From: Bifidobacterium amazonense
Lineage (GTDB): Bacteria > Actinomycetota > Actinomycetes > Actinomycetales > Bifidobacteriaceae
Assembly (NCBI RefSeq): GCF_018555435.2
Contig: NZ_JAFEJT020000021.1
Coordinates: forward strand, 1-47,995
Reading direction: 5' to 3'
Length of the DNA stretch: 47,995 nt
The translations under genes and the position numbers were made by a program. A model generated the notes under the pieces. The model was not told the origin of the DNA, searched no databases, and worked only from the letters and a program-made list of their open reading frames with translations. Shown here piece after piece: positions 3,928 through 47,995 of this stretch. The stretch's first letter is position 1; each line of letters opens with the position of its first letter.

Positions 3928-6159
3928 TCACACGCGGTCGACGAGGTAGACGCGCGCGGCGAAGTCCGGGCCGAGATCGGTGTCGTCGATGCCGATGTGC
4001 ATGAGTTCGCCGCCTGAACGCACCGCGTCGAACTTGCCGTCGGAGGAGACGACGTGATAGCGCGCGCCCTCGTCAAGACCGCGCATGTACAGGCGCGACT
4101 TGGGCCGGTTCGGCACTCCGAGGATCACGTAGTCGCCGACGATCGCGTGCGCGCGGTCGGCCGACACGCTCATCCACGCGGCCTGACGGTGGTCGTAGGG
4201 CGCGCGCAGACGGTACAGGTCGCCGTTGTGCAGCAGCGACGCGTGCCGCTTGAAGAACGCGACCTGTCCGGCGATCTCGTCGAGATCGGCCGCGGGCACG
4301 CTGGTCAGGTCCATCTCATAGCCGAACGTGCCGAACATGGCCACCGCGGCGCGCGTGGCGAGCGATTCGGAGCGGCCGGTCTGGTGGTTCGGCGTGATGG
4401 AGACGTGCGCGCCCATCGTCGCGACCGGGAAGAAGTAGCTGGTGCCGTACTGGATCGACAGGCGTTCGATCGCGTCGGTGTCGTCGCTGGTCCACGCCTG
4501 CGGCGAGTACGCGAGGATGCCGTAGTCGAAGCGGGAGCCGCCGGACGCGCAGCCTTCGATGATCAGGTCGGGGAACGCGGCGAACAGGCGCTCGTAGAGC
4601 GCGTACACGCCGAGGATGTAGCGGTGCATGATCTCGCCCTGATGCTCGGCGCCGCGCGTCGCGTCGAACGCCTCGGAGATGAAGCGGTTCATGTCCCACT
4701 TGATGTAGGCCACGTTCGCGGTCGACAGGATCGCGTGCATCTGGTCGTAGATGTTGTCGACCACGGCCGGGTTGGCGAAGTTGAGCACGTACTGGTTGCG
4801 GTAGACGGACTGGCCGCGGCCGGGCGTGGCGATGATCCAGTCGGGGTGGGCGCGGTACAGGTCGGAGTCCTTGTTGGTCATTTCCGGCTCGAACCACAGG
4901 CCGAAGTCCATGCCGATCTCGTTGATCTTGCGCGCGATGCCGGCGATGCCCTCGGGCAGTCGGTCCGGGTTGGCGACCCAGTCGCCGAGGCCTGCGCGGT
5001 CGCTGGTTCGCGCGCCGAACCAGCCGTCGTCGAGCACGAACAGTTCGATGCCGGCGGCCTTGGCGAGCCGGGCGAGTTCGAGCAGCTTGTCCTCGGTGAA
5101 GTCGAAGTACGTGGCCTCCCAGTTGTTGATGAGCACCGGGCGCTCGCGGCGCGCCCACGCGGGGCGCTGCAGATGGTCGAGCACGATGCGGTGGAAGGTC
5201 TGGCTGAGCGCGTTCAGGCCGCGGTCGGTGTGGCCGAGCAATGCCTCGGGCGTGGCGAATTCGTCGCCGGGGCCGAGCGCCCAGCTGAAGCCGAGCGGGT
5301 TGATGCCGAGCTGCAGTCGGGTCGCGCCGTACGTGTCGACTTCGGCGTGCAGGTCGAAGTTGCCGGAGTAGACGAACGCGAGTCCGAACGCCTCGCCCGC
5401 GTCCTCGGTGGTCGCCGGTCGCGCGAAGAGCGCGTTGGGGCTGAAGTACGGGCCGCTTGCGCCGCGCAGCGATTCGATCTGCTGGATGCCGGGGTGCAGC
5501 GGCTGCGTGTGCGGCTCGCGTTCGCGCGCCCACGCGCCGGTGAATTCGGTCATCGTGTAGTCGCTGTCGGGCAGGTCGAGGCTGAGGCTGGCCGCGCGTT
5601 CCAGCGTGAGCTGCTGTTCGCCGTCGTTGCGGATGACGGCGCTGCGTGCGATGACCGGCTCGTCGCGGAAGATCGTGTACCGGAGCGTCACGGTGAGCCC
5701 GATCAGCTCGTCCTTGAGTTCGACGGACAGTGTTTCGGCCTCGTCGTCGGCCGCGTACGTGGACGGCATGCCGGGCAGGGCCGGCTTGCCTGCGGTGATC
5801 GAGTGGCTCACGTAGCGCAGGTCAGTGACGTGCGATCCGTTGGGCTGCGCGACTTCGATGGCGGGATGACGATAGTCGCCGCGGCCGAATTCGGGGTAGG
5901 CGAAGCGCTCGTGTTCGGCGTAGCGCGACGCGCCCTCCTCAACGGTGGACGACTGGACGCGGAAGCGGTCGTCGACGAGGTAGCCGAAGTCGCCGGCCGC
6001 AGGCACGGCGGCTCCGGTGTACAGGTTGACGAGCTTGCCTTCGAGCACGCCGAGGATGACGCTGATCCGTCCGTTGTGCAGGTGGAACTGGATGGGCGCC
6101 TGGCTCTTGGGGTCGGCGTTGACGGTGATGAGGTTGCGGAACGACTGGGGTTCAGACAT
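3928..6159 (-). CDS. Alpha-galactosidase, glycoside hydrolase family 36
   Basis: The 743-residue protein starts at the ATG at 6159 (MSEPQS), preceded by AGGAG; a longer GTG-initiated form from 6213 is less likely. It has the GH36 layout: N-terminal beta-sandwich to about residue 330, catalytic TIM barrel at about 330-640, and C-terminal beta domain. The nucleophile is Asp489 in 'KWDMNR' and the acid/base is Asp559 in 'WTSDDTD'; 'EGCASGGSRFD' at about 535-545 is the substrate-binding signature. Such retaining enzymes release galactose from raffinose, stachyose and melibiose. No signal peptide is present, so the enzyme is intracellular and needs imported oligosaccharides; no transporter is in this window. 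A LacI-type palindrome overlaps its promoter region. The length matches bifidobacterial GH36 enzymes. Confidence 0.95.
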   Translation of the reverse strand: MSEPQSFRNLITVNADPKSQAPIQFHLHNGRISVILGVLEGKLVNLYTGAAVPAAGDFGYLVDDRFRVQSSTVEEGASRYAEHERFAYPEFGRGDYRHPAIEVAQPNGSHVTDLRYVSHSITAGKPALPGMPSTYAADDEAETLSVELKDELIGLTVTLRYTIFRDEPVIARSAVIRNDGEQQLTLERAASLSLDLPDSDYTMTEFTGAWAREREPHTQPLHPGIQQIESLRGASGPYFSPNALFARPATTEDAGEAFGLAFVYSGNFDLHAEVDTYGATRLQLGINPLGFSWALGPGDEFATPEALLGHTDRGLNALSQTFHRIVLDHLQRPAWARRERPVLINNWEATYFDFTEDKLLELARLAKAAGIELFVLDDGWFGARTSDRAGLGDWVANPDRLPEGIAGIARKINEIGMDFGLWFEPEMTNKDSDLYRAHPDWIIATPGRGQSVYRNQYVLNFANPAVVDNIYDQMHAILSTANVAYIKWDMNRFISEAFDATRGAEHQGEIMHRYILGVYALYERLFAAFPDLIIEGCASGGSRFDYGILAYSPQAWTSDDTDAIERLSIQYGTSYFFPVATMGAHVSITPNHQTGRSESLATRAAVAMFGTFGYEMDLTSVPAADLDEIAGQVAFFKRHASLLHNGDLYRLRAPYDHRQAAWMSVSADRAHAIVGDYVILGVPNRPKSRLYMRGLDEGARYHVVSSDGKFDAVRSGGELMHIGIDDTDLGPDFAARVYLVDRV

Positions 6160-34426: not shown

Positions 34427-34500
34427 CGCGGGGTGGAGCAGCTCGGTAGCTCGCTGGGCTCATAACCCAGAGGTCCTAGGTTCAAATCCTAGCCCCGCTA
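34427..34500 (+). tRNA. Initiator tRNA-fMet (CAT), prophage attachment site
   Basis: A 74-nt cloverleaf without encoded CCA. The anticodon loop is CTCATAA. Initiator features are three consecutive G-C pairs in the anticodon stem (GGG with CCC) and an unpaired first base, C1 opposite U72. The T-arm is CTAGG-TTCAAAT-CCTAG. The phage integrase gene begins 101 nt downstream, so the tRNA 3' half is the likely attB/attL core and the insertion leaves the tRNA intact. Confidence 0.95.
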
Positions 34501-34510
34501 CTAACAGCGG

Positions 34511-34601: not shown

Positions 34602-35426
34602 ATGGCTACTAAACAACCGGCGCCGCAATGGCGCGAATCGATAGACAAATGGCTGGCCTCACTGAGGGCGGCCGGCTACTCCGAACAGACGCTCAAGACG
34701 CGCCGCTACCAGATACAGGCCCTCAGCCTCGGCCTCGGCGGCAGCCCCTTGGACGTGACCGTCGAGGACATCGTCGAGTGGTACGCGGACCACGACTGGA
34801 AGCCCGAGACGCGCAAGAGCTCGCGGAACGCTGCCGTGTCGTACTTTCGATGGCTCAAGCACTCGGGACGGCGCCCAGACGACCCCTCCGAGGGGCTTCC
34901 CAGCGTGAAGCGACCGCAGGCGCACCCCAGACCATGCCCGGACAGGGTCATTCTGGCCGCTCTGGGCCGCGCAACCGAGTCGGAACGGCTGATGATACGT
35001 CTCGGCGCGGAAGCGGGCCTCAGAAGGGCCGAAATAGCGTGCGTAAGCTCCGACGACGTCATGGACGACCTTCACGGCAAGAGCCTCATAGTCCGAGGCA
35101 AGGGCGACAAGCAACGCATAGTCCCATTGTCCGACGATCTCGCCGCCGAGATACTGAAGCACAGGGGGTATCTCTTCCCCGGCCGTTGGGAGCCGCACTG
35201 CGAGCAGTCCTACATAGGCAAGCACGTCGGCGCGCTCCTAGGGGGCGGGTGGACGACGCACAGCCTGCGGCACCGGTACGCGACGATGACCTATCAGGCC
35301 ACGGCCGACATCTTCCTCGTGTCGAAGCTCTTGGGGCATGAGAGCGTGGAGACGACGCAGCGCTACGTCGCGCTGCCGGACTCGCGGCTGAGGGTCGCCG
35401 TGGACGCCGTCGCCTTGGGCGCTTAG
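34602..35426 (+). CDS. int: Phage integrase, tyrosine recombinase
   Basis: The 274-residue protein has an N-terminal SAM-like core-binding domain ('ESIDKWLASLRAAGYSEQTL') and a C-terminal catalytic domain. Active-site residues are visible: Arg141 in 'EAGLRRAEIA', Lys170 in 'GKGDKQRIVPL', His220 and Arg223 in 'HSLRHRYAT', His246 in 'LLGHES' and the nucleophile Tyr255 in 'TTQRYV'. It catalyses site-specific integration at the adjacent tRNA-fMet gene. The ATG at 34602 has no evident RBS. It is shorter than lambda-type integrases and lacks an arm-binding domain, resembling XerC/D-like phage integrases. It faces the lysis genes, with a terminator between them. Confidence 0.95.
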   Translation: MATKQPAPQWRESIDKWLASLRAAGYSEQTLKTRRYQIQALSLGLGGSPLDVTVEDIVEWYADHDWKPETRKSSRNAAVSYFRWLKHSGRRPDDPSEGLPSVKRPQAHPRPCPDRVILAALGRATESERLMIRLGAEAGLRRAEIACVSSDDVMDDLHGKSLIVRGKGDKQRIVPLSDDLAAEILKHRGYLFPGRWEPHCEQSYIGKHVGALLGGGWTTHSLRHRYATMTYQATADIFLVSKLLGHESVETTQRYVALPDSRLRVAVDAVALGA

Positions 35427-35899: not shown

Positions 35900-37159
35900 T
35901 CACCAGTAGAGGGTTTCGCCGACGTAGATCAGGTTGGGGTTACCGGACCGGTAGCCTCTGATCTGCGAGACGCTGACGCCGTTGGCGGCCGCGATCGTGC
36001 CCAGTGTCTCCCCTGCCCTGACGGTGTGGCGTCGCGTGGTGGACGTGGTGGTCTTGGACGCGCCGCGGTAGGTGACGGTCTGGCCGGGGTAGATGCGGTT
36101 GATGTTGCCGCTGGGCACGCTCCACGCGGTGACCGGGTAGAGGCCGGTGCGCTGGGCGATCGCGCTCATGGTGTCGCCGGCGCGGACGGTCACGCTCGTC
36201 GAGCCGGACGAGCCGGACGACGTGGAACCGCTGGAGGCTAGGAGCTGGTTGACGCGGGCCTGTACCTCGTCGAAGCGGCTGCCGAGCAGCGTCTTGCGCT
36301 GTGGCATGTTGCCGTATTCGCCGCGGATGACGGCGCGGGCGAGGGTGTCCGTGTCGCCGGTCGGGGTCGAGGGCTTGGGTTCCGACGGGGTGACGGTCGG
36401 CGGGGTGACGGGCTTGGTGTCGGCCTGTCCGGCGTACTTGGCCCATGTGACAGCGTCGCCGTAGAACCAGTTGACGTCCACAGCCTGACCGACGCCGGCG
36501 ACGTTGCCGCTGCTGGAGTACTGCCATGCGGCGGCGAAGCTCCACGGGCTGACGTTGTAGGGCACGTTGCCGGGGTTGCGCAGGCGGTCGCCGGTGTAGC
36601 CTCTCGGGTAGCCGGCGACCCACAGGCCGTAGTCGGCCGAGGCGACGGCCCTCCAGTCGCCGGACTGGACGACCGACGCGCTCATGTAGATCATGGGCTT
36701 CACGCCCCACGCGGAGGCGACGCGGTCGAGCCATCGCTTGGCCCACCATGTCTGCGTGTTCCACTTGCCGCCCGGCTCCCAGTCGAGCACGGGGATGACG
36801 CCCTGATTCACATAGCCCTTGGTCTGACTGATGAACCAGTCGGCTTCCTTCTCCGGGCTGTTGCCGAGGTCGGGGCGGGCGAAGTGGTAGACGCCGCGGC
36901 GGATGCCGGCGTTGGCGAAGCCGGTCATGGAGCAGTCGGCGGACTTGTCGGTGTAGCCGGCGCCCTCGGTGACCTTGACGAACGCGAACGACGTGCCCGC
37001 GGCCTTCGCGGATTGGGCGCGGCTGGTGTTGACGCAGCCCTGCCAGTTGGACACGTCCACGCCGCTGTCGGCGGTCGCGATCGCCGGGGTCGCGAGCATG
37101 ATCGTGGCGCAGCATGCCGCGGTGAGCTTGGCGATGGGGTTGCCTTTGTTGTGGTTCAA
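35900..37159 (-). CDS. Endolysin: GH25 muramidase with CW_7-like and two LysM domains
   Basis: A TTG at 37159 with AGGAAGG about 8 nt upstream is chosen; an ATG at 37216, overlapping the previous stop, lacks an RBS. The product has 419 residues. Residues 1-30 are a signal peptide ('IAKLTAACCATIMLATPAIA'), so export may be Sec-dependent. The GH25 domain follows, with 'GVDVSNWQG' and 'IPVLDWEPGGKW' holding the catalytic Asp and Glu. Next comes a cell-wall-binding CW_7-like motif ('DTLARAVIRGEYGN'), a Ser/Gly linker, and two LysM repeats ('TVRAGDTMSAIAQRTGLYP' and 'HTVRAGETLGTIAAANGVS'). It cleaves the glycan strands of peptidoglycan at lysis. Confidence 0.95.
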   Translation of the reverse strand: MNHNKGNPIAKLTAACCATIMLATPAIATADSGVDVSNWQGCVNTSRAQSAKAAGTSFAFVKVTEGAGYTDKSADCSMTGFANAGIRRGVYHFARPDLGNSPEKEADWFISQTKGYVNQGVIPVLDWEPGGKWNTQTWWAKRWLDRVASAWGVKPMIYMSASVVQSGDWRAVASADYGLWVAGYPRGYTGDRLRNPGNVPYNVSPWSFAAAWQYSSSGNVAGVGQAVDVNWFYGDAVTWAKYAGQADTKPVTPPTVTPSEPKPSTPTGDTDTLARAVIRGEYGNMPQRKTLLGSRFDEVQARVNQLLASSGSTSSGSSGSTSVTVRAGDTMSAIAQRTGLYPVTAWSVPSGNINRIYPGQTVTYRGASKTTTSTTRRHTVRAGETLGTIAAANGVSVSQIRGYRSGNPNLIYVGETLYW

Positions 37160-37181
37160 AGGGGTTTCCTTCCTACTAAGT

Positions 37182-37204
37182 GAGCCCGCCGGTTTGGCGG
37201 GCTC
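37182..37204 (-). other. 9-bp hairpin between the small membrane gene and the endolysin
   Basis: GAGCCCGCC (37182-37190) pairs perfectly with GGCGGGCTC (37196-37204), loop of 5, just upstream of the TTG start. There is no T tract. It could slow the message or limit ribosome entry at the endolysin start, and it supports the downstream start choice because coding through it would be needed otherwise. Confidence 0.6.
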
Positions 37205-37212
37205 GGGTCTCT

Positions 37213-37521
37213 TCATTCGTTGCTCGCGGGGATTTTCGCGTGTTGGATGTAGTCGTTCATGGCGGTGCCGGTGCCGTTGCCGCCGAGGGCGGCGTAGGCG
37301 TCGTAGATCTGTTCGGCGGTGTGCTTGTCGTCGATCGGGCAGGCGCCGCGGGCGACGGTTTCCTGCTGTATCTGCTGCAATTCCCGGAACAGCAGGATGC
37401 GGATGCCGTCGCGCATGGGATTATGCGAGTCGACTTTGTTCAGCAGCCACGGGATGAAGGCGCCGAAGCCGCCGGAACCGATGATGGCGACGACGACGGT
37501 GATGGTGGAGGGGTCTGACAT
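37213..37521 (-). CDS. Small phage membrane protein, possibly a second holin
   Basis: The 102-residue protein starts at the ATG at 37521 with AGGAAA upstream. Its first 25 residues are one hydrophobic helix ('ITVVVAIIGSGGFGAFIPWL'); the rest is soluble and helical ('ILLFRELQQIQQETV'). Its start lies inside the 3' end of the RT gene, an 82-nt overlap, and it is next to the endolysin. Single-helix proteins in lysis cassettes can be holins, antiholins or spanin-like factors; I do not recognise a specific family. Confidence 0.7.
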   Translation of the reverse strand: MSDPSTITVVVAIIGSGGFGAFIPWLLNKVDSHNPMRDGIRILLFRELQQIQQETVARGACPIDDKHTAEQIYDAYAALGGNGTGTAMNDYIQHAKIPASNE

Positions 37522-38651
37522 GGGTTTCCTTTCTCGATTCGGTCGCAGAGCTCCAGATAGAGCGCGTCCATCGATCGTTGTGAGCGGCGGGCGTCGAGAT
37601 GGTCCAGCGAACCGCGCCATGAGGCGTAGGAGCTGCGGAAGGTGACCATGCTCATGCGCCCCTCCATGACTTGGCGGGCGAGTTTCTTGAGCTTGCGGCG
37701 TTCCCTGACGATGGCCTTGCGCGAGGGCCTGACGACGATGCGCCCGGTGTCGGTGATCGTCCACTTCTTCTTGAGCCATGTGAAGCCGTGGCCGAGTTTG
37801 ACGATCTTGGTCTTGCGGGGGTTGATGCGGATGCCGAGTCGCAGGGCTTCGGCCTCGATGTGCGTTAGGGCGCGTTCGAGGCGTGGTTTGTCGTGGTCGA
37901 TCACATACGTGTCGTCCATGTACCGGCCGCAGGCTTCGCAGCCGGATTGCTGTTCGAGCCAATGGTCGAGCCGGTTGGGATAGGCCACGGCGAACACCTG
38001 CGAGGGTTCCGAGCCGAGGCCGAGGCCGTGGGTGCCGTCCTCGCGGTCGACGAGCTGGGTGATGAGGCGCATGGTGCGCGGGTCCGTGATGTACGTCGAG
38101 GCTTGTCGGATGACGCCCTCATGGGGTATCGAACCGAAGTAGTCACTGAAGTCGACTAGGAGTATCCAGCCGTCCCGCCCGTGTTTCCGGTAGTGGCGGA
38201 CGAGCTGGCGTTTGAGCCGGTCCATCGCGTACTTGGTGCCCCTGCCCTTCATGTTCGCCGAGTTGCCGGCCGTGAAGGACGGGCTGTAGACGGGGCGGAT
38301 GAGCTGGGTGGTGAGGGCCTTCTGGACGACCTTCTCGGGGAACTTGGCGGCTTGGATGTGCCGGAGCTTGCCGCGTTCCATGAGGTCGAACCTGCGGAGC
38401 GGCATGGTGACGTCCTCCACTGCGGCGAGCTTGTCGCGGGTCGCCAGAAGCTGGCGCATGAGGTGGGTTTCGTAGGCCTGCGTGCCGGTCTTCCATCGGA
38501 CGCCCTTGGCCGCGTCGTGCGCGGCTCGATGGAGGACGTTGAGGTCGAGGATGCGGTCATACGAGTGCTCCGCCCGTCGGGCTTCGCGATGGGCTTGGCG
38601 TTTGGCGTCGCGACGGCGTCGTCTCGCCTCGCGCCGGTCCTGATTGGACAT
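37440..38651 (-). CDS. DGR reverse transcriptase
   Basis: The 403-residue protein starts at the ATG at 38651 (MSNQDRREARR) with AGGAAA upstream. A very basic N-terminus (residues 1-27) is followed by the RT palm and fingers. 'LLVDFSDYFGSIP' at 164-176 has the first catalytic Asp; 'LGSEPSQ' at 212-218 matches the DGR-type (I/V/L)GxxxSQ motif that replaces QGxxxSP of group II intron RTs; 'YMDD' at 244-247 is the catalytic box; 'INPRKTKIVKLG' is RT motif D/E. With Avd it would copy the template-repeat RNA into cDNA while misincorporating at adenines. The last 27 residues are a Pro/Ser-rich tail overlapping the next gene. It is downstream of the template repeat, as usual for DGRs. Confidence 0.95.
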   Translation of the reverse strand: MSNQDRREARRRRRDAKRQAHREARRAEHSYDRILDLNVLHRAAHDAAKGVRWKTGTQAYETHLMRQLLATRDKLAAVEDVTMPLRRFDLMERGKLRHIQAAKFPEKVVQKALTTQLIRPVYSPSFTAGNSANMKGRGTKYAMDRLKRQLVRHYRKHGRDGWILLVDFSDYFGSIPHEGVIRQASTYITDPRTMRLITQLVDREDGTHGLGLGSEPSQVFAVAYPNRLDHWLEQQSGCEACGRYMDDTYVIDHDKPRLERALTHIEAEALRLGIRINPRKTKIVKLGHGFTWLKKKWTITDTGRIVVRPSRKAIVRERRKLKKLARQVMEGRMSMVTFRSSYASWRGSLDHLDARRSQRSMDALYLELCDRIEKGNPCQTPPPSPSSSPSSVPAASAPSSRGC

Positions 38652-38915
38652 ATATGGGCTTTCCTGAAATGGGGGCACCCGGCGCCACCTCTGTGCGCCG
38701 TCGGGGTCAGGTGGCGTAGGCGCGTGGGCATGGAGCCGGTTCGACGGCGAGCGGCAGTGTCCGGCCATGCACGACAGCGGGTTGCCCCGCGCCGTCCGGG
38801 TGCTTGTTCACGCTCGGCCCCATAGGGGCTTCGCGATGGTTGACGGCCCCTTCAACAAAGAATCCCGCTGCGTTCGCTTTCGCTACTTGGACTGGGGCCG
38901 ACCGGGGTCGGTTGG
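38652..38915 (-). other. Template repeat to RT spacer
   Basis: These 264 bases between template repeat and RT gene have no credible ORF. In Bordetella phage BPP-1 the equivalent spacer is part of the DGR RNA that primes and positions cDNA synthesis, so a structured RNA is expected here. Just past the template, CCGACC pairs with GGTCGG across 2 nt (about 38899-38912). Confidence 0.55.
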
Positions 38916-39026
38916 TGAATCAGGGCAGGGCAGCGCCGTTCGTGTTGTTGGCGTTGTTGTTGTTCGCGGTGCCGTCCGTGTTGACGTTGGGCACGTTGTT
39001 CGTGTTGCCGGAGTTGGCAGAACGTT
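38916..39026 (-). repeat. DGR template repeat (TR)
   Basis: This 111-bp non-coding repeat aligns without gaps to the variable repeat (offset 632 bp). All 15 differences fall at adenines of the coding (minus) strand; none of the other 76 positions differ. Read in the frame of the target gene it contains 13 AAC codons, the template codon favoured by DGRs because NNC never gives a stop. The 3' end on the coding strand is an adenine-free stretch of 17 nt ending CCCTG, acting like the initiation-of-mutagenic-homing site. Confidence 0.96.
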
Positions 39027-39044
39027 ACTGGCCGTCAACCAAGA

Positions 39045-39473
39045 TCATGAGGGGAGGAAGCCCTTGTCGCGCGCGGTCTTCCTGTCCGCGGCCATGCGGT
39101 TGCGGAGCAGCAGTTTCTCGCGTTCGAGACGGCCGATGGCGTGGTCGAACCTGTTGAGGTCGGCGTTGTCCCAGATCGCTTTTATCAGGGCCATGTCGTC
39201 CTCCAGCACGTCGCACCAGCCGACGGCGTCCATGAGATGCCGGCGTCGCAGCTCGTAGGCCTGCCGGTCGGTCGGGTAGACGTCGCGGGCGTGGATGACC
39301 GATCGGACGAGCGCGTGCGCGTCCTTCACCGTAGGCAGTGCCAAGGTGAAGCGCATGCTCTTGGGCACGATCTTCTCGCTGCCCATGAGGCGGATGATCT
39401 CGACGCGGATGTCCGTGGCGAGCACCTGCCATTCGAGTGGGCTTGTCTTGCGTTTGCCGACCGGCACGCTCAT
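39045..39473 (-). CDS. avd: Avd-like accessory variability determinant
   Basis: The 142-residue basic helical protein starts at the ATG at 39473 with GGAGG 8 nt upstream. Four amphipathic helices are apparent: 'LEWQVLATDIRVEIIRLMGS', 'AHALVRSVIHARDVY', 'RRRHLMDAVGWCDVLEDDM' and 'HAIGRLEREKLLLRNRMAAD'. This is the four-helix-bundle (S23-like) architecture of Avd, which forms a pentamer that binds the RT and template RNA. It lies between target gene and template repeat, its usual place. Identity rests on fold, size, charge and position; sequence similarity to Bordetella Avd is not something I could measure. Confidence 0.85.
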   Translation of the reverse strand: MSVPVGKRKTSPLEWQVLATDIRVEIIRLMGSEKIVPKSMRFTLALPTVKDAHALVRSVIHARDVYPTDRQAYELRRRHLMDAVGWCDVLEDDMALIKAIWDNADLNRFDHAIGRLEREKLLLRNRMAADRKTARDKGFLPS

Positions 39474-39494
39474 AGGGGTTTCCTCCAGTGGATG

Positions 39495-39516
39495 GCCCCG
39501 CGCTAGGGCGCGGGGC
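39495..39516 (-). other. GC-rich hairpin between target gene and avd
   Basis: GCCCCGCGC (39495-39503) pairs perfectly with GCGCGGGGC (39508-39516), loop of 4. It follows the DGR recognition hairpin by 5 nt and could be an attenuator reducing avd/RT expression below that of the structural gene. No T tract follows. Confidence 0.55.
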
Positions 39517-39521
39517 GTGGA

Positions 39522-39543
39522 CGGCTAACCTGTCGGTTAGCCG
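39522..39543 (-). promoter_or_regulatory. DGR target-recognition hairpin with GACA loop
   Basis: On the coding strand CGGCTAACC, loop GACA, GGTTAGCCG forms a perfect 9-bp stem starting 4 nt after the variable repeat. In BPP-1 a hairpin/cruciform with an 8-bp stem and a GRNA tetraloop 4 bp past VR is required for efficient mutagenic retrohoming; GACA fits GRNA. The target gene's TAA stop lies inside the stem (39537-39539). No such hairpin follows the template repeat, matching its role in marking the recipient. Confidence 0.85.
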
Positions 39544-40907
39544 AGGTTGAAGCAGGGCAGGGCAGCGCCGTACGCGATGTTGGCGTAGTTGACGTTCGCG
39601 GTGCCGTCCGTGTAGACGATGGGCACGTAGTTCGTGCGGCCGGAGCCGGCAGAACGTAGCCAGTACCAGTTATTGGCGCCGGTGCGCTTGCGGTTGGCGT
39701 CGCTACGGGATAGGACGACGTAGGCGTTGTTCGGCGGGGTGCCGCCCGCGGTCTCGGCCGAGTAGTTCTTCTTGCCGAACGCTTCCCATTCGCTGGGCGG
39801 GAAGACCTTGGACACGACGCCGCTGCGCTGGCCGCTGTAGTTGGTGAACGGCACCTTGAGGCCCACGATGCTGTTCTTGACCGCGGTGGGCAGGCTGTTG
39901 TAGAAGGTGCCTTCCATCCACTTCTTGAGGTCGGAATTACCCCAGTCGTTGGAGTTGCTGGAGGCGTAGGCCATCGCGGTCGGGAAGAGCTTGTCCGGCA
40001 CGAACGTGAAGTGGTGTTTGCCGTTGGTCGCGTCGCCGCTGATGTAGTACTGATCGCGGCCGTTGCACACGTACTTGTACGTGGTGCCGCCGGCGGTGAC
40101 GTTGAAGTAGTCGCCGGGGATGATCGCGTTGATGTTCGCGTCGCCGGCCTTGGCGATGGCGGCGACCATTTCGGCGGGCGTGGCCTTGCCGGTGTCGTCG
40201 AACGGGGTCCAGCCCTCCAAGAGCTCGACGCCGGCCTTGATTTCCTTGCCGACGTAGGTGCCTGCCTTGGCCTTGGCGAGGTTGTCGGTGTAGTACTTGA
40301 CCTTCTCGTCGTCGGTGGGGCCGGTCTGGATGGACGTGACGGCGACGGTGGCCTTGACGGTCGGGTCGCTCTTGGAAGCGCCCGTGATGGTCGCCTCGCC
40401 GCCCTTGAGGTAGCTGATCGTGTACGTGGTGCCGGACTTGAGAGCCACACTGGCGATCGTCGGGGCGCTGGAGGTGACGACGAGGGTCTTGTCGGTCGCG
40501 TTCGTCGGCGCGACAGTGAAGGTGACATCGACGGACGTCTTGGTGTCGCCTTGGACGGTGGGCTTGTCGACGGTGATCGCGGTGACGGGGACGCGCACGG
40601 TGATGGTGAGCTTGGCCGTCGCGGCGGGGTTGCTCTTGGAGGTCACGGTGACGATGGCGGTGCCGCCGTCCGTGCCTTCCTTGGCGGCCACGGTGTACGT
40701 GTTGCCGGCGCCCTTGGTGAGGGTGACGAGGTCGGGCTTGTCGACGGCGACGGTGAACCGCTTGTTGCTGGCGGTGTCCGGGGCGATGGTGACGGTGAAG
40801 TCGGTCGATTCGCCGGTCTTCAGTGTGGCGGCGGTCTTGCTTAGGGTGACGCCGGTGACTGGTACGGCGGGTTTGAACGAGCCGTAGAGGGTTTGGATGA
40901 CTACCAT
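39537..40907 (-). CDS. DGR target: tail protein with Big2 domains and a variable C-type-lectin-like tip
   Basis: The 456-residue protein starts at the ATG at 40907, overlapping the previous stop (TGATG). A short N-terminal anchor is followed by two Big2-type immunoglobulin-like domains (about 15-105 and 106-195; 'VTGVTLSKTAATL', 'VTAITVDKPTV'). Residues about 215-456 resemble the DUF6273/formylglycine-enzyme-type C-type lectin fold used by DGR targets ('WGNSDLKKWMEGTFYNSL', 'NNWYWLRSAGS'). The last 40 residues are the variable repeat; diversified positions are 417, 421, 424, 427, 430, 432, 439, 441, 444, 445, 446 and 452. By position behind Tal and BppU it is a receptor-binding or adhesin tip. 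Binding partner unknown. Confidence 0.93.
   Translation of the reverse strand: MVVIQTLYGSFKPAVPVTGVTLSKTAATLKTGESTDFTVTIAPDTASNKRFTVAVDKPDLVTLTKGAGNTYTVAAKEGTDGGTAIVTVTSKSNPAATAKLTITVRVPVTAITVDKPTVQGDTKTSVDVTFTVAPTNATDKTLVVTSSAPTIASVALKSGTTYTISYLKGGEATITGASKSDPTVKATVAVTSIQTGPTDDEKVKYYTDNLAKAKAGTYVGKEIKAGVELLEGWTPFDDTGKATPAEMVAAIAKAGDANINAIIPGDYFNVTAGGTTYKYVCNGRDQYYISGDATNGKHHFTFVPDKLFPTAMAYASSNSNDWGNSDLKKWMEGTFYNSLPTAVKNSIVGLKVPFTNYSGQRSGVVSKVFPPSEWEAFGKKNYSAETAGGTPPNNAYVVLSRSDANRKRTGANNWYWLRSAGSGRTNYVPIVYTDGTANVNYANIAYGAALPCFNLG
39548..39658 (-). repeat. DGR variable repeat (VR)
   Basis: The 3' end of the target gene, encoding residues 417-454. Compared with the template, nine of thirteen AAC codons have changed: two by double substitutions to GGC and CGC, one to GTC, two to ATC and four to TAC. 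One ACG became GCG, and two edge adenines also changed. The outcome is Gly, Arg, Val, Ile, Tyr and Ala at predicted ligand-contact sites, with no stop codon introduced. The number of changes shows that at least one round of mutagenic homing has taken place. Confidence 0.96.
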
Positions 40908-42790
40908 CAGTTCTCCTTCATGGTTGCGATGCGGATGGTGATTGGTCCGTCGGGTTCGTTGGTGCAGATCATGCGCAGCGAGCCGTCGGGGACGTCGGGG
41001 TTGTCGGTGTGGTCCTGAATGACGGGGTTGGCGTTGATGTAGGTCTCGACGTTGTCCACGCTGGTGGTGGCCGGGCTGACGAGGTTCACGGCCTGTAGGC
41101 CTTGGATGGCTTTGGTGGCGGTGAGGTTGTCGTCGAAGTCGGCGACGGCGAAGGTGGCGTTGATGATGTGGGCGCCGCCGAGGGCGGTGAGTTTGTTGTC
41201 CACGATTTTGACGGTGGTGTCGTCCACTTGGACGCCGATGCCGTCGGCGGACACGTTCACAGCCTTGCCGGGGGCCGGTTTGGCGGTGACGACGCCGTCG
41301 GTGACGGTGATGCCGTTGCCGGCGGTGACGGTGGCGTTCGAGCCGTCGGCGCCGCGGGGGATGCCGAAGTCGAAGGTGACGTCGCCGTTGCCGTCGGTGG
41401 TGCCGGTGACGGTGACCTTGCTTCCGGGGTCGAGGGTGGTGACGGTGCCGATCTTGACGAGGGGCGTGTGGCCGTCCGCGCCTTCGAGGTTGCTCATGAC
41501 GAACTTGAGGGTGCGGTCGGTGGGTGTGCCGCCGGCTTCGACGTGGACGTCCGGGGTTCCGGTGCCGGGTGTGTATTCGAGGGTGATCGATGAGATGGCG
41601 GCGGTGTTCTCGCCTCGTTCGCCCTGCGGGATGTCGAACGTGGCGTGGTAGGTGTTGCCGGTCTTGGTCAGGGCCACATTGGCCTTGGTGCCGGGCGCGA
41701 CGGTGTTGGTTTGGTCGACGACGAGGCCGAAGCCGTCCACGGCGGCCTTCGCTTCGGCGGCGCTTGCTGCGGCGGCGTCCTGCGATGCCTTGGCGGCGGT
41801 CTTGGATGCGGTGGCGCTGTCGGCGGCTTGGGTCGCGGTGGTGGCCGAGCTGGCGGCGTCGGTCGCGGATTCCTCGGCCTGATCGGCGTAGCGGCCGGCC
41901 TGTGCGTCGCTGGCGGCCGCCTGTGCGGCGGATTCGGTCGCCGCGGTCTCGCTGGCCTTGGCGTTCGTCTCGGAGGTCTTGGCCGCGGTCTCGCTCGTCT
42001 TGGCGTTGGTCTCGGAGACCTTGGCCGCCGCCGCGGAAGCCGCTGCGGCGTCCTCGCTCGCCTTGGCGGCGTTCTGCGAGGCGAGGGCCGCGGCGGCCGA
42101 GTCGGCCGCGTTGCTTGCGCTGGTGGCGACTGCGGCTTCCGAGGCCTTGGCGTTGGTCTCGCTCGTCTTGGCCGCGTCCTGCGAGGCCTTGGCGGCGTTC
42201 TGCGAGGCGAGGGCCGCGGCGGCGCTTGCTGCGGCCTCTTCCTTGCTGGTGCCGATGTCGGCGAGGTGCTGGGCGGCCAGTTTCTCGCTGTCGGCGGCGT
42301 TCGCGGCGGATACCTCGGCCTGATCTCGCGCGGCCTCGGCTCGGCGCACGGCTTCCTCGAACTCGCCGGCGGCGTCGCCCGAGGTGACCTTGAGGACGCC
42401 GGACTCGACGTAGAGCGTGAAGGGGCGGGTGACGACGGTGCTTTCGTTGGCCTTGCCATCATTCTGGGTGAACTGGAGGCCGAGCGTCTTCTTGCCGACC
42501 GATTGGATGGCGCTGGATGGGATGGGCGCCTCGAAGGTCGCGGTGGCCGCCCCGGCGACGGGGGTCATGGTGATGCGGTCGCCGAACACCTTCGGGTTGT
42601 CCGGTTCGGGGTCGTAGAGCAGTCGGGCGGTGATGCCCTCGGGGTCGACGTCCTTGCCGCCGTTGGTGAGGACGGCGCGGACGACTCGCCCGTTGCGGTC
42701 GCCGGTCACGGCCGCGATCTGCGGCATGTAGTCGGACGCGGTGTCGCAGCGCAGCGTGATGGCCTTGTAGTCGTTGAGCTTGTCTGCCAT
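40907..42790 (-). CDS. BppU-type baseplate/fibre protein with Ala-rich coiled coil
   Basis: The 627-residue protein starts at the ATG at 42790 behind AAAGGAAAA. Residues 1-130 fit the BppU N-terminal domain of baseplate upper proteins ('ITLRCDTASDYMPQIAAVTG', 'GLQFTQNDGK'). Residues about 140-345 are an Ala/Ser/Glu/Lys-rich repeat, with units such as 'AKASETAATES' and 'AALASQNAAKASQDAAKTSE', predicted to be a long trimeric coiled coil. The C-terminal 280 residues are beta-rich with Gly/Asp turns ('IPQGERGENT', 'IPRGADGSNAT'). It probably links the tail tip to the variable protein encoded next. Its stop shares a base with that gene's start. Confidence 0.85.
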   Translation of the reverse strand: MADKLNDYKAITLRCDTASDYMPQIAAVTGDRNGRVVRAVLTNGGKDVDPEGITARLLYDPEPDNPKVFGDRITMTPVAGAATATFEAPIPSSAIQSVGKKTLGLQFTQNDGKANESTVVTRPFTLYVESGVLKVTSGDAAGEFEEAVRRAEAARDQAEVSAANAADSEKLAAQHLADIGTSKEEAAASAAAALASQNAAKASQDAAKTSETNAKASEAAVATSASNAADSAAAALASQNAAKASEDAAAASAAAAKVSETNAKTSETAAKTSETNAKASETAATESAAQAAASDAQAGRYADQAEESATDAASSATTATQAADSATASKTAAKASQDAAAASAAEAKAAVDGFGLVVDQTNTVAPGTKANVALTKTGNTYHATFDIPQGERGENTAAISSITLEYTPGTGTPDVHVEAGGTPTDRTLKFVMSNLEGADGHTPLVKIGTVTTLDPGSKVTVTGTTDGNGDVTFDFGIPRGADGSNATVTAGNGITVTDGVVTAKPAPGKAVNVSADGIGVQVDDTTVKIVDNKLTALGGAHIINATFAVADFDDNLTATKAIQGLQAVNLVSPATTSVDNVETYINANPVIQDHTDNPDVPDGSLRMICTNEPDGPITIRIATMKEN

Positions 42791-42800
42791 TGGTTTTCCT

Positions 42801-45341
42801 TTACTTCAGGGACAACGACGCCGATGGGACGGGGATGTCCATTTGGTCGTAGTCGGCTTGGGTCCACACCTTCTGTTCGCTCTCGTATTGGTCGAGCAAC
42901 GTCTTGGCCCCGGCGGTGTCGCCGTCCACGAGCAGCCTGAGCACGTCATGGAGCTTGCCGAGCGGGATTTCCTCGATGCCGGCCGGCATGCTCGTGTAGG
43001 CGTCGGGGCTGTCGAGGTCGAGCCCGTCGTCGGCGAGCGCCATGAGGAGTGTGTCGAGGACGTTGGTGCTGGCGGTTGATGCGCTGGCGGCTTTGGTGAC
43101 GGTGCCGACGCCGTCGGCGCTGACCATGACGTGGTAGTTGCTGTAGACGATGGCGCTGTAGTTGTTGGTGACGTCGATGCGGGCGTTGTGGCTTGGGGTG
43201 AGGAGTTGGATGCTGTTGTCGGTGGCGTAGACGTGGTATCCGTGGTTGCCTATTTCGATGCCTCTGACGTTGGCCCATCCTGAGTCGCTGGCGACGAGGT
43301 AGCTGTTGCCGGTGAGCAGCATGTAGCATGCGCTGGGGCTGATGCCGATGCACGGGTAGTCGTCGCCGCTGGCGGTGTGGATGACGGTGCTGCCGCTTTG
43401 CCCCTGCGGGTCGTTGCCGACTTCGAGGAACGGCTGGTTTCCGAGGGCGCTGGCGCGGAAGAGGCTTGAGTAGCTGGTGCTTCCGGCGATGGTGAAGAGT
43501 TCTCGGCCGCTGGAGACGAGTTTCATGGCGTTGCTGCCGCCTACGGTGAGGTAGTTGTTGTCGTCGGGGCCGATGGTGTTGCCTCTGAGGCTGACGTTGC
43601 CGTTGTAGTCGGTCATGGTGCCGGCGTCTCCGCCGCTGCCGGTGACGTGGAAGCCGCTGGCGTCGATGGTGGTGGTGGTCCATTTGCCGTCGACGTAGCC
43701 GCTGATGCGGATGGTGCCGTCGGTGATCTGGATGCCGCCGCCGCTCGTGAGGTCCCATGTGTTGCCGGCGCCGTCGGTGATGCGGCCTCGTTTGAGGATG
43801 ACTTCGCCGGTGTTGAGGTTGATGCTGACGGTGTTGGCGTTGTTGTGGATGATGCCGCTGGTGAAGTTGATTTCGCCGGTGTCCAGATTGAAGTAGCTGC
43901 TGCCGCCTTGGATGATGCCGGTGACGATGGTGTCGGCGACGAGGCCGGCGCCGGTGCCCATCGTTCTCCAGTTCCATGTGCCGTCCGACTTGCGGCTGTT
44001 GGCGATGCGGAAGTAGCCGCCGCCGATCTGGATTGCCATCGTGGCGTCGCGGTCGCTGCCGTCGGCTCGGAGGGGCTTGTCGTAGACGATGATGCCCTCG
44101 TTGGGTTTCAGGTACGTGTAGCCGCCGGTCTGGTTCATTTTGCCGTTGAGGCCGTTGATGACGCCGTCCAAGTAGGGGCCGGTGAGGTTGGCGGCGTCGT
44201 CCCAGACGCCCGAATGGGACCATAGTTGCTGCACGGTGTTCTGGACCTGTTTGTTGGTCTTCGTGAAGCTGGGGGTCACGTTGCCGAAGGTCAGGGTGGT
44301 GCCGCTGGCGGACTCCAATAGGTCTTCCTCGATCTTGAGGACGCGGGCGGAGAGGCGCAGCGGGGTCGGGAAGAGCCGGTCGACGACTTGGATGGTGTCG
44401 CCGATGCCGATGCCCTTGACGCCCTGACCGGCCTGCTCCAATTGAATGCTGTTGATCTCGTAGGTGACCGACGGGGTGCTCCACTTGGTGAGCTGGGCCT
44501 TGCCCAAGCGCAACAGCGTGGCGGGGTCGTCGGAGTCGTATTCGATGAAGCCCTCGGAGGGGAGGATTTCACCGTTAGGCCCGGGACGCCCGTAGAGCTT
44601 CAGCAGGGCGGGGTCGGTGACGTCGATGTACTTCTTCCCACCGTTGACCGAATCGATGGAGACCTTGTCGTCGCTGGTGTTGCCGTCCGCGCCGATCTTG
44701 CTCTTGCCGTACACGTACAGGCGGGTTATCGGACGGCGGCTGTCGGTGGCTACCCTGACGCCGGTCAGGTCGCGCCCCCATTCGATGCGCCGGCCGAGCT
44801 CGTCGCCGGTCGAGGCCAGAAGGTTCACGGTCCGGTTCACGATGCGCGTGCCGGTCTCGTCCGGCTCGCAGGTTTCCTCGATCTCCAGATCGTAGGTGTT
44901 GGCGATCTGCTGGAGCATGTCGAGGGCGTTGGTCTGCGAGATGTCGAGGTCGGCGGTGTTCACGCCGTTGGATTCGACCTTGCCGACCTTGAAGCGGGTT
45001 TGGTTGAGGCAGTACGCGAGCGCGCCCTGTGCTCCCCCGTTGAGCTTGTACCGGTCGATGCCCTTGAGGGATAGTTCGTTGAGGATGGTGGGGGCGGTGA
45101 CTTGCCAGTATGGTTTTCCGGCCGTGTCGTGGACTTGTTCGGGCACGCTTACGCTGTGCTCGCGCCAGATGCCGCTCTTGTCCCGGTAGGCGATGATGTC
45201 GCCCTGATCGACCGGGGTGCCGGTGGTGATGGTGAGGGTGTTGGTGCCGTCGGTGCCGAGCTCGCGCGACGCCTTGACGACGTCGTGGAGTTGGCCGTCG
45301 GCGATGGGCTGGCCCCATCGGTCCATGTGGAGGAAACGCAT
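42801..45341 (-). CDS. Tail-associated lysin/tip protein (Tal, prophage endopeptidase tail family)
   Basis: The 846-residue protein starts at the ATG at 45341 with AAGGA upstream. The N-terminal 350 residues ('RFLHMDRWGQPIADGQLHDV', 'NALDMLQQIANTYDLEIEET', 'GKAQLTKWSTPSVTYEINS') match the gp27-like hub domain of Tal/prophage tail endopeptidase proteins. The remainder is beta-rich and repetitive, as in tail fibres ('TDGTIRISGYVDGKWTTT'). The last 60 residues are helical. Tal sits at the tail tip under Dit and carries the host-recognition apparatus. No peptidase motif was confirmed. Confidence 0.88.
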   Translation of the reverse strand: MRFLHMDRWGQPIADGQLHDVVKASRELGTDGTNTLTITTGTPVDQGDIIAYRDKSGIWREHSVSVPEQVHDTAGKPYWQVTAPTILNELSLKGIDRYKLNGGAQGALAYCLNQTRFKVGKVESNGVNTADLDISQTNALDMLQQIANTYDLEIEETCEPDETGTRIVNRTVNLLASTGDELGRRIEWGRDLTGVRVATDSRRPITRLYVYGKSKIGADGNTSDDKVSIDSVNGGKKYIDVTDPALLKLYGRPGPNGEILPSEGFIEYDSDDPATLLRLGKAQLTKWSTPSVTYEINSIQLEQAGQGVKGIGIGDTIQVVDRLFPTPLRLSARVLKIEEDLLESASGTTLTFGNVTPSFTKTNKQVQNTVQQLWSHSGVWDDAANLTGPYLDGVINGLNGKMNQTGGYTYLKPNEGIIVYDKPLRADGSDRDATMAIQIGGGYFRIANSRKSDGTWNWRTMGTGAGLVADTIVTGIIQGGSSYFNLDTGEINFTSGIIHNNANTVSINLNTGEVILKRGRITDGAGNTWDLTSGGGIQITDGTIRISGYVDGKWTTTTIDASGFHVTGSGGDAGTMTDYNGNVSLRGNTIGPDDNNYLTVGGSNAMKLVSSGRELFTIAGSTSYSSLFRASALGNQPFLEVGNDPQGQSGSTVIHTASGDDYPCIGISPSACYMLLTGNSYLVASDSGWANVRGIEIGNHGYHVYATDNSIQLLTPSHNARIDVTNNYSAIVYSNYHVMVSADGVGTVTKAASASTASTNVLDTLLMALADDGLDLDSPDAYTSMPAGIEEIPLGKLHDVLRLLVDGDTAGAKTLLDQYESEQKVWTQADYDQMDIPVPSASLSLK

Positions 45342-45350
45342 GGCAGTTCC

Positions 45351-46130
45351 TTAGATGAAGTAGAGGGGTTCGTATTCAATCCAGCCGTCGCACCCGGTGA
45401 GGGTGATGGTGGTCTGGGGGCTGGCGAGTTCGGGATAGTCGCTGTCCAAGGTCGGGGCGAGGGGCGTGCCGTCGAGCGTGGCGGTGCCCTGTTCGCTGTC
45501 GACGGCGAGCGCCCGGCCTGCCGCGAACGCGGTTTCCTGCGTGAAGCGCAGCGTGTTCGCCCCGTCGTTGACGCTGATCTCGGTGACGTTCTTGGTGGTC
45601 AGGTCGAGGGTGGGCATGGCGAGCCGGTTGCCCTTGATGCCGAGCTGGTTACGGCCCTCGTTGAGCGCGAGGCGTTCGCGGGGGCCGTGTTGGACGCTGT
45701 CGTCGGCGGACAGGGTGAGCGTGGTTCCGGTGCAGAGGTAGCGCATGCCTGGCAGTATGACGTCCTTCCATTCGCCGATCTGGAGGGTTCCGCGGTATTC
45801 GCCGTCCCACATGCGCTGCCACCAGATGCTCGTGCGCATGCCTTGGTATTCGCCGAGGCGTTGGCGGAGCTTGCGTTGGTCGAGTTCGTCGGCGGTCATG
45901 ACGATGTCCACGGTGATGTCGCGGCCCTTGTCGTCGTAGGCCCGGCCTTTGCGGTCTCTCAGGGTTTGGTCCAAGAGGCCGTGTCGGCCGGGTATCGACG
46001 TGCGGGTGAGCCGTGGTTCGGCGGCTTCGACGGTGATGCCGTCGGGGCCGATGAAGCAGCTCCAGTAGGACAGGGGGTGTCCGCCGAGCAGTAGGCTGTC
46101 GTCTCCGGGGCGGTAGTTGAAGCGGCTCAC
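45351..46130 (-). CDS. Distal tail protein (Dit)
   Basis: The 259-residue protein starts at a GTG at 46130 overlapping the tape-measure stop (GTGA). The N-terminal 130 residues resemble the Dit ring domain ('VEAAEPRLTRTSIPGRHGLL', 'DITVDIVMTADELDQRKL', 'MWDGEYRGTLQIGEW'); the C-terminal part is a galectin-like beta domain. A Dit hexamer joins the tail tube to Tal. Gene order tape measure - Dit - Tal is diagnostic of siphovirus tails. Confidence 0.9.
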   Translation of the reverse strand: MSRFNYRPGDDSLLLGGHPLSYWSCFIGPDGITVEAAEPRLTRTSIPGRHGLLDQTLRDRKGRAYDDKGRDITVDIVMTADELDQRKLRQRLGEYQGMRTSIWWQRMWDGEYRGTLQIGEWKDVILPGMRYLCTGTTLTLSADDSVQHGPRERLALNEGRNQLGIKGNRLAMPTLDLTTKNVTEISVNDGANTLRFTQETAFAAGRALAVDSEQGTATLDGTPLAPTLDSDYPELASPQTTITLTGCDGWIEYEPLYFI

Positions 46131-47995
46131 AGTAGGGTCTCCATTTCCTGTAGTTCGCCGATGCGACGGTTGAACGCGGGCGCGAGGGCGAGCGCCGCCT
46201 CGCGTTCGTTGGTGTAGGTGATCACGAGCGGCAGCTTGCTCAATGCGGTGGTGAACGCGGCCTCAAGGTCGGCCTGTTGGCTTTCCTGCGGCGATGCCTG
46301 AACGTAGGCCGTGGCCGGAGTGTGTTGTGCGTATCCGGGCGGTGTGATGTCGGCTTCGAGCGGGTTGACGCTCGGCATCATGCCTTCGGCCGCGGTCTGA
46401 ACGGTCGGGGCCATGTCAGCGAGGGCGTTGACCATACCCTGTCCGCTCATTTCGCCCACATAGTAGAACGCGGTGGACGGCGAGTGGATGCCGAGGAAGC
46501 TCTTGGCCGCGTCGAGCGCAGACGAGGCCATGTTCTTCACGGTGTTCACGACGTTGCCGATCATGCCCTTGATGCCGTTGATGAGGCCTTGGACGATGTT
46601 GCGGCCGGCGTTGAGCAGCCATGAGCCGGCGCCGGAGAACACACCTTGGATGCTGGACGGGATGGACTTGACGACGCCGAGCATGTTGCTGCCGGCGCTC
46701 TTGACAGCGCTGACCATGCCGTTCCATGCGTTCTGCACGGTGGTCTTGACGGCGTTCCACGCGGCGGTCCACATGCTCTTGATGCCGTTCATGACGCCGT
46801 CGATGGTGCTCTTGACACCGTTGGCGGCGCTGGTGACGAGGCTCTTGATGGCGTCCCACACGCTCTGCGCGACACTCTTGATGGCGTTCCAGATGGAGTC
46901 CCACACGCCCTTGATGGCGTTGAGCGCGTTGCTGATCGCGCTCTTGACGCCGTCGACGGCCGAGCCGATGAGCGATTTGATCGCGTCCCATATGGTCTGC
47001 GCCACGGCCTTGACCGCGTTCCATACGCTGCTCCACACGGTCTGGATGACGTTGAGGCCGGCCTGTAGGGCCGCCTGCAACGTGTTCCAAATGCCGGTGA
47101 AGTAGCTGGATATGGCCTGCCAGATGCCGGAGAACACCTGTTGGATACCCTGCCATGCCATGCTCCAGTCGCCGGAGAACACGCCGGTGAGGAACGTGAT
47201 GACGCCTTGAAGCACGGTGATGACGCCTTGGATGACGCCGCTGATGGTCGTGACCATCGGCACGACGACGCTCACGATGCCTTGGATGATGCTCGTGACG
47301 ATCGGCAGCAGGGCCGTGATCACGTTCACGATGGTCGTGATGACCGGCACGAGCATGCTGACGAGCGTGGTCACGATCATCGCGATGATCGGCACGAGCA
47401 TGGTGATGGCCGTCACGATGGCGGTGATGACCGGCATGAGCGCGCTCACGACGGTGGTCACGAGCTGCACGATGACCGGCACCAATGCGGTGATGGCCGT
47501 CACGATGGTCGAGATGACCGGCATGAGCGCCGACACGAGGGTCGTGACGACCTGCATGATGGGCGGCACGAGCTGCACGACGGCCGAGATGATCTGCACG
47601 ACCGCGGGCAGCAGCGACGCCAGAGCGCTCACGATCTGGCCGATGACCGGCACCAATGCGCTCACGAGCGTGGTCACGATCTGCATGACCGCGGGCAGCA
47701 GTTGCACGACGGCCGAGATGATCTGGCCTATGACCGGAACGAGCGCACTGACGAGCGTGGTCACGATCTGCATGATGGGCGGCACGAGCTGGGCCAGCAT
47801 GCCGACGATGCTCGCTCCCAAAGGCACGAGGCTCGCCACGAGCTGGGCCAGCATGGGCGCGATCTGGGCCGCGGCCTGCGCGATCGTGTCCATGAGCAGG
47901 CGGATTGACGGCGCGCTCTGCTGCCCGACGGCCACGAGCGCTTCTCCGAGCTGGGCGAACGCCTGCGAGAGGGCAGGCAGTTGCGCGACGATCGG
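46127..47995 (-). CDS. Tape measure protein, N-terminus beyond the right edge
   Basis: At least 622 residues are visible; the frame stays open through the right edge, so the gene is partial at its 5' end. It is strongly hydrophobic and helical. The first 200 visible residues are tandem repeats of about 11-22 residues of the type 'VTTLVSALVPVIGQIVSA', which also gives strong DNA repetition at about 47210-47830. The middle holds 'WNAIKSVAQSVWDAIKSL'-type repeats. The C-terminal 'AKSFLGIHSPSTAFYYVGE' is a common tape-measure motif. The protein sets tail length and is ejected with the DNA. Confidence 0.95.
   Translation of the reverse strand, partial: PIVAQLPALSQAFAQLGEALVAVGQQSAPSIRLLMDTIAQAAAQIAPMLAQLVASLVPLGASIVGMLAQLVPPIMQIVTTLVSALVPVIGQIISAVVQLLPAVMQIVTTLVSALVPVIGQIVSALASLLPAVVQIISAVVQLVPPIMQVVTTLVSALMPVISTIVTAITALVPVIVQLVTTVVSALMPVITAIVTAITMLVPIIAMIVTTLVSMLVPVITTIVNVITALLPIVTSIIQGIVSVVVPMVTTISGVIQGVITVLQGVITFLTGVFSGDWSMAWQGIQQVFSGIWQAISSYFTGIWNTLQAALQAGLNVIQTVWSSVWNAVKAVAQTIWDAIKSLIGSAVDGVKSAISNALNAIKGVWDSIWNAIKSVAQSVWDAIKSLVTSAANGVKSTIDGVMNGIKSMWTAAWNAVKTTVQNAWNGMVSAVKSAGSNMLGVVKSIPSSIQGVFSGAGSWLLNAGRNIVQGLINGIKGMIGNVVNTVKNMASSALDAAKSFLGIHSPSTAFYYVGEMSGQGMVNALADMAPTVQTAAEGMMPSVNPLEADITPPGYAQHTPATAYVQASPQESQQADLEAAFTTALSKLPLVITYTNEREAALALAPAFNRRIGELQEMETLL

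Follow-up and report, generated by a model that had tools for sequence, protein, structure and literature searches.

The sequence considered here is a stretch of 47,995 nucleotides (hereafter, the window) from Bifidobacterium amazonense (contig NZ_JAFEJT020000021.1). On its minus strand, positions 37440–40907 comprise a complete diversity-generating retroelement (DGR). Reading from 40907 to 37440, the parts are a target gene with its variable repeat (VR), a stem-loop, an Avd-like gene, the template repeat (TR), a spacer, and the gene for a reverse transcriptase (RT), which is the order found in the mtd-avd-TR-brt element of Bordetella phage BPP-1. A complete DGR with intact parts in canonical order on one strand had been claimed in the first-pass annotation of this DNA, and this is confirmed: every part named there was found, the reading frames are open, and all lie on the minus strand. 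Absent from that annotation was the identity of the spacer, which matches the Rfam family RT-2. The features of the cassette, in the same order, are:

39537–40907, minus strand: DGR target, 456 amino acids, an Ig-like Big_2 part followed by a C-terminal DUF6273 domain which holds the VR
39548–39657, minus strand: VR, 110 nt, in the last codons of the target
39522–39543, minus strand: stem-loop just 3' of the VR, with a 9-bp perfect stem and a GACA loop, overlapping the target stop codon
39045–39473, minus strand: Avd-like protein, 142 amino acids, a predicted four-helix bundle
38916–39025, minus strand: TR, 110 nt, including 34 adenines
38655–38900, minus strand: RT-2 RNA (RF03077), the structured TR-RT spacer (Rfam, 46.6 bits; cut-off, 40)
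38872–38887, minus strand: hairpin module AGUA-[GC GAAA GC]-GAA, within the spacer's 5' portion
37440–38651, minus strand: DGR-type RT, 403 amino acids, with a YMDD motif (mechanical start of the open reading frame (ORF), 38768)

Ungapped comparison of TR and VR over 110 nt gives 14 mismatches, all 14 of them at TR adenines (34 available) and 0 elsewhere; the probability that 14 of 14 random mismatches would fall on TR adenines is 7.6e-9 (hypergeometric). The VR covers codons 417–454 of the 456-codon target, i.e., the 3' end of the ORF. A GC-rich 3' block, the initiation of mutagenic homing (IMH) sequence GCGCTGCCCTGCCCTG, is identical in both repeats and is followed by TGA in the TR versus TGC in the VR. 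The TGA, at window position 38920, is a stop in the VR frame, while the VR reads TGC (Cys) at 39552; the same A/C difference is found again in most of the relatives shown. The stem-loop begins 4 nt past the end of the VR.

A record from Bifidobacterium santillanense (L002) includes a 110-nt TR identical to that of the window. The differences between its VR and its own TR are at 18 adenines and one C; compared with the window VR there are 15 differing sites, 14 of which are TR adenines. In the rest of the target, the two records are different at 60 of 1261 nt. The VR codons show 11 nonsynonymous changes and 1 synonymous change, compared with 20 nonsynonymous and 27 synonymous changes outside the VR. 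The occurrence of one TR with VRs that differ at adenines is the pattern predicted by adenine mutagenesis from an invariant template. The limitation of VR changes to template adenines, which the first-pass annotation had proposed as a check, is thus seen between two relatives at all but one of the differing sites. For RT-dependent diversification in cells, this pair of VR alleles with the same TR is indirect evidence.

The start of the RT was revised to the ATG at 38651, which is preceded by a ribosome-binding-like AGGAAAG (38659–38665). Searches of profile libraries returned RT matches for the protein, none of which was labelled DGR, and the best solved structure by sequence (PDB: 8ub7; E value 2.6e-14) is entitled as a DGR ribonucleoprotein reverse transcriptase. 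A tree was constructed from 38 RTs, consisting of 32 on the DGR side (loci collected by RT or RT-2 similarity, together with BPP-1), three from group II introns, two from retrons and one defence-associated RT (DRT). The outgroup labels are based on scores above the group II cut-off (L058 and L060), scores above the retron St85 cut-off (L050 and L052), and a match to AbiP2 of the DRT set (L055); the group II label of L059, whose record has no gene there, is our own. Six loci were left out, namely L014, L015, L043 and L056, in which no RT ORF was found by the script, as well as L004 and L006. The 32 DGR-side RTs form one side of a branch (support 96/94), with all six outgroup sequences on the other. 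A grouping of the RT with those of group II introns or retrons, which the first-pass annotation had named as the outcome that would speak against a DGR, was therefore not observed; the window RT is nested in the DGR side, where its neighbours are B. santillanense, L036, and, from IMG/VR, loci L005 and L007–L010.

The assignment of the ORF at 39045–39473 as Avd is supported by its position and by its predicted fold, which matches that of BPP-1 Avd. By sequence, there was no match in Pfam, NCBIfam or PADLOC and only an unnamed PHROG, and no match in the PDB was better than an E value of 1.3. In a metagenomic relative of Avd (P0004), the C-terminal tail is rich in Asn, as if the frame had continued into a TR.

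The RT-2 match in the spacer spans model positions 1–222 of 222. It starts no more than 16 nt past the 3' end of the TR, and its own end is 4 nt ahead of the start codon of the RT. Among all Rfam families, RT-2 was the only match to the spacer up to an E value of 0.1, and a search of positions 38400–39700 to the same limit gave no match to Phage_DGR (RF03022). A mir-1990 match at 39149–39211 was dismissed, being far below its cut-off. Covariation was assessed in 16 of 17 complete spacers (L035 was left out) aligned by sequence only. The consensus fold contains 32 pairs, 22 of which have compensatory changes on both sides. Paired cells amount to 91.2%, against 71.8% in shuffled controls and at most 46.6% in slid controls, and double-change cells number 108, against 39.2 ± 5.0 and at most 21, respectively; the consensus structure itself came from this alignment, and for further pair types, the weakest of the measures, 8 of 500 shuffles attained the observed value. 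These controls rule out a chance match or a coding signal as the source of the RT-2 match. On the RT tree, the 17 rows with RT-2 require a single change, on a weakly supported branch (81/84), from which it follows that the RNA and the RT travel together. RT-2 is presumably defined as a family by its location upstream of RT genes. No description of it as a DGR RNA was found in the literature searched, which did not include the 2017 paper in Nucleic Acids Research that reportedly defined the RT-n motifs, and priority is not established. The Rfam 15 paper lists RT-2 among the families with refined structure, and the term DGR is absent from that paper.

The distribution of RT-2 was surveyed in four sets of sequences. 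The family was matched in 3 of 112 genomes of the same genus, all three with TR/VR pairs, one of which has a single non-A change. A stricter run across the phylum, in which the window's own copy was missed, gave seven matches in 6 of 396 genomes; each has an A-only TR/VR pair and a TR which ends within 14 nt of the RT-2 start. Among 13 loci with similar RTs, seven contain RT-2, five of these with TR/VR and two cut by contig ends. Finally, RT-2 is present in 2 of 12 phage records (Pioen and Shimadzu), both with TR/VR. Pooled, 17 of the 19 RT-2 loci have TR/VR, and the other two are those cut by contig ends. In these surveys the strict TR/VR finder returned nothing for L004, L006, L008 and L009; a looser finder detected VRs in L008 and L009, each with 7 mismatches at A and 2 elsewhere, and in L004 and L006 the upstream sequence is too short to contain a VR. 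A search of L004–L010 for inverted VRs found none. The TRs of L008 (6620–6731) and L009 (6617–6728) differ from one another at six sites. Every one of these sites has an A in either L008 or L009, and in five of them the L008 TR letter is that of its own VR. Judging from these letters, the template itself may have been rewritten, by self-homing or VR-to-TR conversion. One same-genus genome (L021 and L057) also encodes a second RT of very different sequence, which is accompanied by a pair of 102-nt repeats (mismatches: 13 A, 0 other) and has no RT-2 match.

Starting from the RNA instead, a 17-letter pattern for the RT-2 core identified at least 120 viral loci. Among the 120 listed, 90 passed the strict TR/VR rule, with 1385 A mismatches versus 21 others. 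Six more have looser pairs (A/other mismatches: L063, 19/4; L082, 10/5; L117, 12/3; L118, 8/13; L156, 4/3; L166, 13/5). In the remaining 24 there is no TR/VR; the upstream sequence is 1,300 nt or less in 21 of these, and 4,120, 5,297 and 1,750 nt in L091, L149 and L179, respectively. With outgroup RTs in competition, a DGR-type RT was found within 700 nt downstream in 113 of the 120 listed loci, and a group II, retron or DRT query scored higher in none of the 113. Six of the seven without an RT have 226 nt or less downstream, and the seventh, L149, has 7,240 nt. The full RT-2 model was positive in all 17 of the listed loci to which it was applied, a set that did not include L149. In loci with all three parts, the order TR, RT-2, RT is constant. 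One viral contig (L091) has two RT-2 RNAs, at 1409–1640 and 4015–4244, which are 2.6 kb apart, and no TR/VR was found for the second.

The cassette resembles that of BPP-1 in its order of parts on one strand, the stem-loop 4 nt past the VR, the Avd fold, and a structured TR-RT spacer. The two differ in that the BPP-1 stem-loop has an 8-bp stem and a GAAA loop, in place of 9 bp and GACA; the BPP-1 target is annotated as Mtd, whereas that of the window is Big_2 plus DUF6273; and the two RTs are placed apart from each other within the DGR side of the tree. Moreover, the BPP-1 spacer is assigned to Phage_DGR (RF03022; 104.7 bits), in contrast to RT-2 in the window. According to the available text of PMC12875486, the BPP-1 spacer both recruits bRT-Avd and, from an adenine within it, primes cDNA synthesis. 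From its place and its company, we assign RT-2 as the spacer segment of the DGR template RNA in this group of RTs, and as the counterpart of the BPP-1 spacer. By analogy, it would dock the RT and Avd and take part in priming.

Extending what is known of BPP-1 to the window, an avd-TR-spacer transcript would fold and bind RT and Avd through its RT-2 segment. Synthesis of cDNA might then be primed at the TR 3' end by an adenosine within the spacer, with misincorporation by the RT opposite template adenines. The cDNA would replace the VR up to the GC-rich 3' block, with assistance from the stem-loop. The expected products are tail-tip proteins with variant C-terminal DUF6273 domains, which could alter phage binding. 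Overall, we consider it highly probable that a complete DGR is present in the tail region of this Bifidobacterium prophage and is likely to rewrite the terminal part of a tail-protein gene, the RT-2 RNA of its spacer being predicted to recruit RT-Avd. A well-formed DGR is thereby added to those of Bifidobacterium prophages, and a natural two-allele test (same TR, different VR) is already present in public genomes. RT-2, an RNA family for which we found no stated role, would gain a concrete one as the spacer that recruits and primes the RT in a sizeable group of phage RTs. It would also serve as a second, different-looking RNA for comparison with the BPP-1 spacer and as a sequence handle for finding DGRs.

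Three alternatives were considered. The DGR might be real and RT-2 only a structured 5' leader of the RT gene, concerned with control of translation or transcription and not with recruitment of the RT to the template RNA, as its end 4 nt ahead of the RT start codon in the window and the location of the family upstream of RT genes would suggest. Against this, the other end of RT-2 is no more than 16 nt from the TR; a structured DGR RNA that recruits bRT-Avd (PMC12875486, available text) occupies the corresponding position in BPP-1; the order TR, RT-2, RT is kept wherever all three occur; and the roles of leader and recruiter are compatible with each other. We regard a leader function alone as unlikely. 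L149, in which the 17-letter core is accompanied by neither a TR/VR pair nor an RT nearby, is either a counter-example to the assignment of RT-2 or a chance match to the pattern.

Just as unlikely, in our judgement, is a decayed DGR whose parts persist after loss of mutagenic homing. It is favoured by the single VR, since a search of the element's own genome found no VR besides that at 39548–39657. The open frames, the retained catalytic YMDD, and the combination, across two genomes, of an identical TR with adenine differences between the VRs are evidence to the contrary. An RT of the group II intron, retron or defence type, with incidental repeats, would agree with the matches, all sub-threshold, to NCBIfam TIGR04416 and to models for retrons and Drt, and with matches to 48 models of PADLOC, where cut-offs are not set. 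The placement of the RT on the DGR side of the tree (96/94), the A-only TR/VR differences, and the Avd fold make this explanation extremely improbable.

Two phages of other hosts have an arrangement like that of the window, i.e., an RT-2 spacer with TR/VR: Faecalibacterium phage Pioen (175.1 bits; RT 32.7% identical to the window RT) and Roseburia phage Shimadzu (144.9 bits; RT 45.5% identical). In the available text of PMC11792537, DGR activity is reported for Pioen on the basis of read variation, and for Shimadzu as cited in the same paper; the Pioen DGR target is DUF6273, which is named there as a DGR target domain with a C-terminal VR. The first-pass annotation suggested that the window element may be undescribed. 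The element itself is a new DGR; in Bifidobacterium, likely DGRs with an RT gene beside a tail gene were noted in 2021 in prophages of B. breve and B. longum (PMC8705816, available text), so that the suggestion holds in part only. The word Avd is absent from the text of that source as available. We take the IMG/VR loci L004–L010, in which the RT-2 spacer is present, to be of this B. breve/B. longum kind; their RTs are 47–48% identical to the window RT and their TRs differ greatly.

The consensus lines of RT-2, RT-14 and Phage_DGR all contain AGUA, a short hairpin and GAA. This module is located at the 5' end in RT-2, on the side of the TR, and at the 3' end in RT-14 and Phage_DGR, on the side of the RT gene. 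By a strict rule it was found in 16 of 32 spacers, and in 37 of the 80 RNA-first loci listed (of at least 120), compared with 4.7 expected from mononucleotide shuffles. BPP-1 itself has AUUA where AGUA is expected. Under the strict rules the module is common, not universal. We presume that the AGUA/GAA arrangement resembles the bulged-G (sarcin-ricin) motif. Tentatively, RT-2 and RT-14 could both be RT-recruiting DGR spacers that share with Phage_DGR one bulged-G-like docking element, a possibility that we rate somewhat below even. If true, there would be a common RNA signature, and DGRs could be found from RNA alone, even those with no recognisable Avd or VR. In Bacillus phage BalMu-1 (L049), the TR-RT spacer at 3813–3956 matches RT-14 (RF02921; 70.4 bits).

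The cassette is flanked by the following genes:

42801–45341, minus strand: prophage tail endopeptidase / tail spike protein
40907–42790, minus strand: tail protein immediately upstream of the target; sub-threshold Pfam match to BppU_N
35900–37216, minus strand: GH25 endolysin with LysM and CW_7
34602–35426, plus strand: phage integrase, next to tRNA-Met (34427–34501)

Because its neighbours are a tail endopeptidase, a tail protein with the weak BppU match, an endolysin, and an integrase beside tRNA-Met, the cassette is placed in the tail-lysis region of a prophage, in agreement with the tail setting given in the first-pass annotation. The target, a tail protein, is a putative receptor-binding protein. 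A C-type lectin fold was looked for in the target, and there was no lectin chain among the matches listed. The end of tRNA-Met is separated by 101 nt from the start of the integrase gene, and this is a likely attachment site. At the other side, positions 46127–47995 contain a large, repeat-rich ORF that runs off the contig end and is a putative tape-measure gene.

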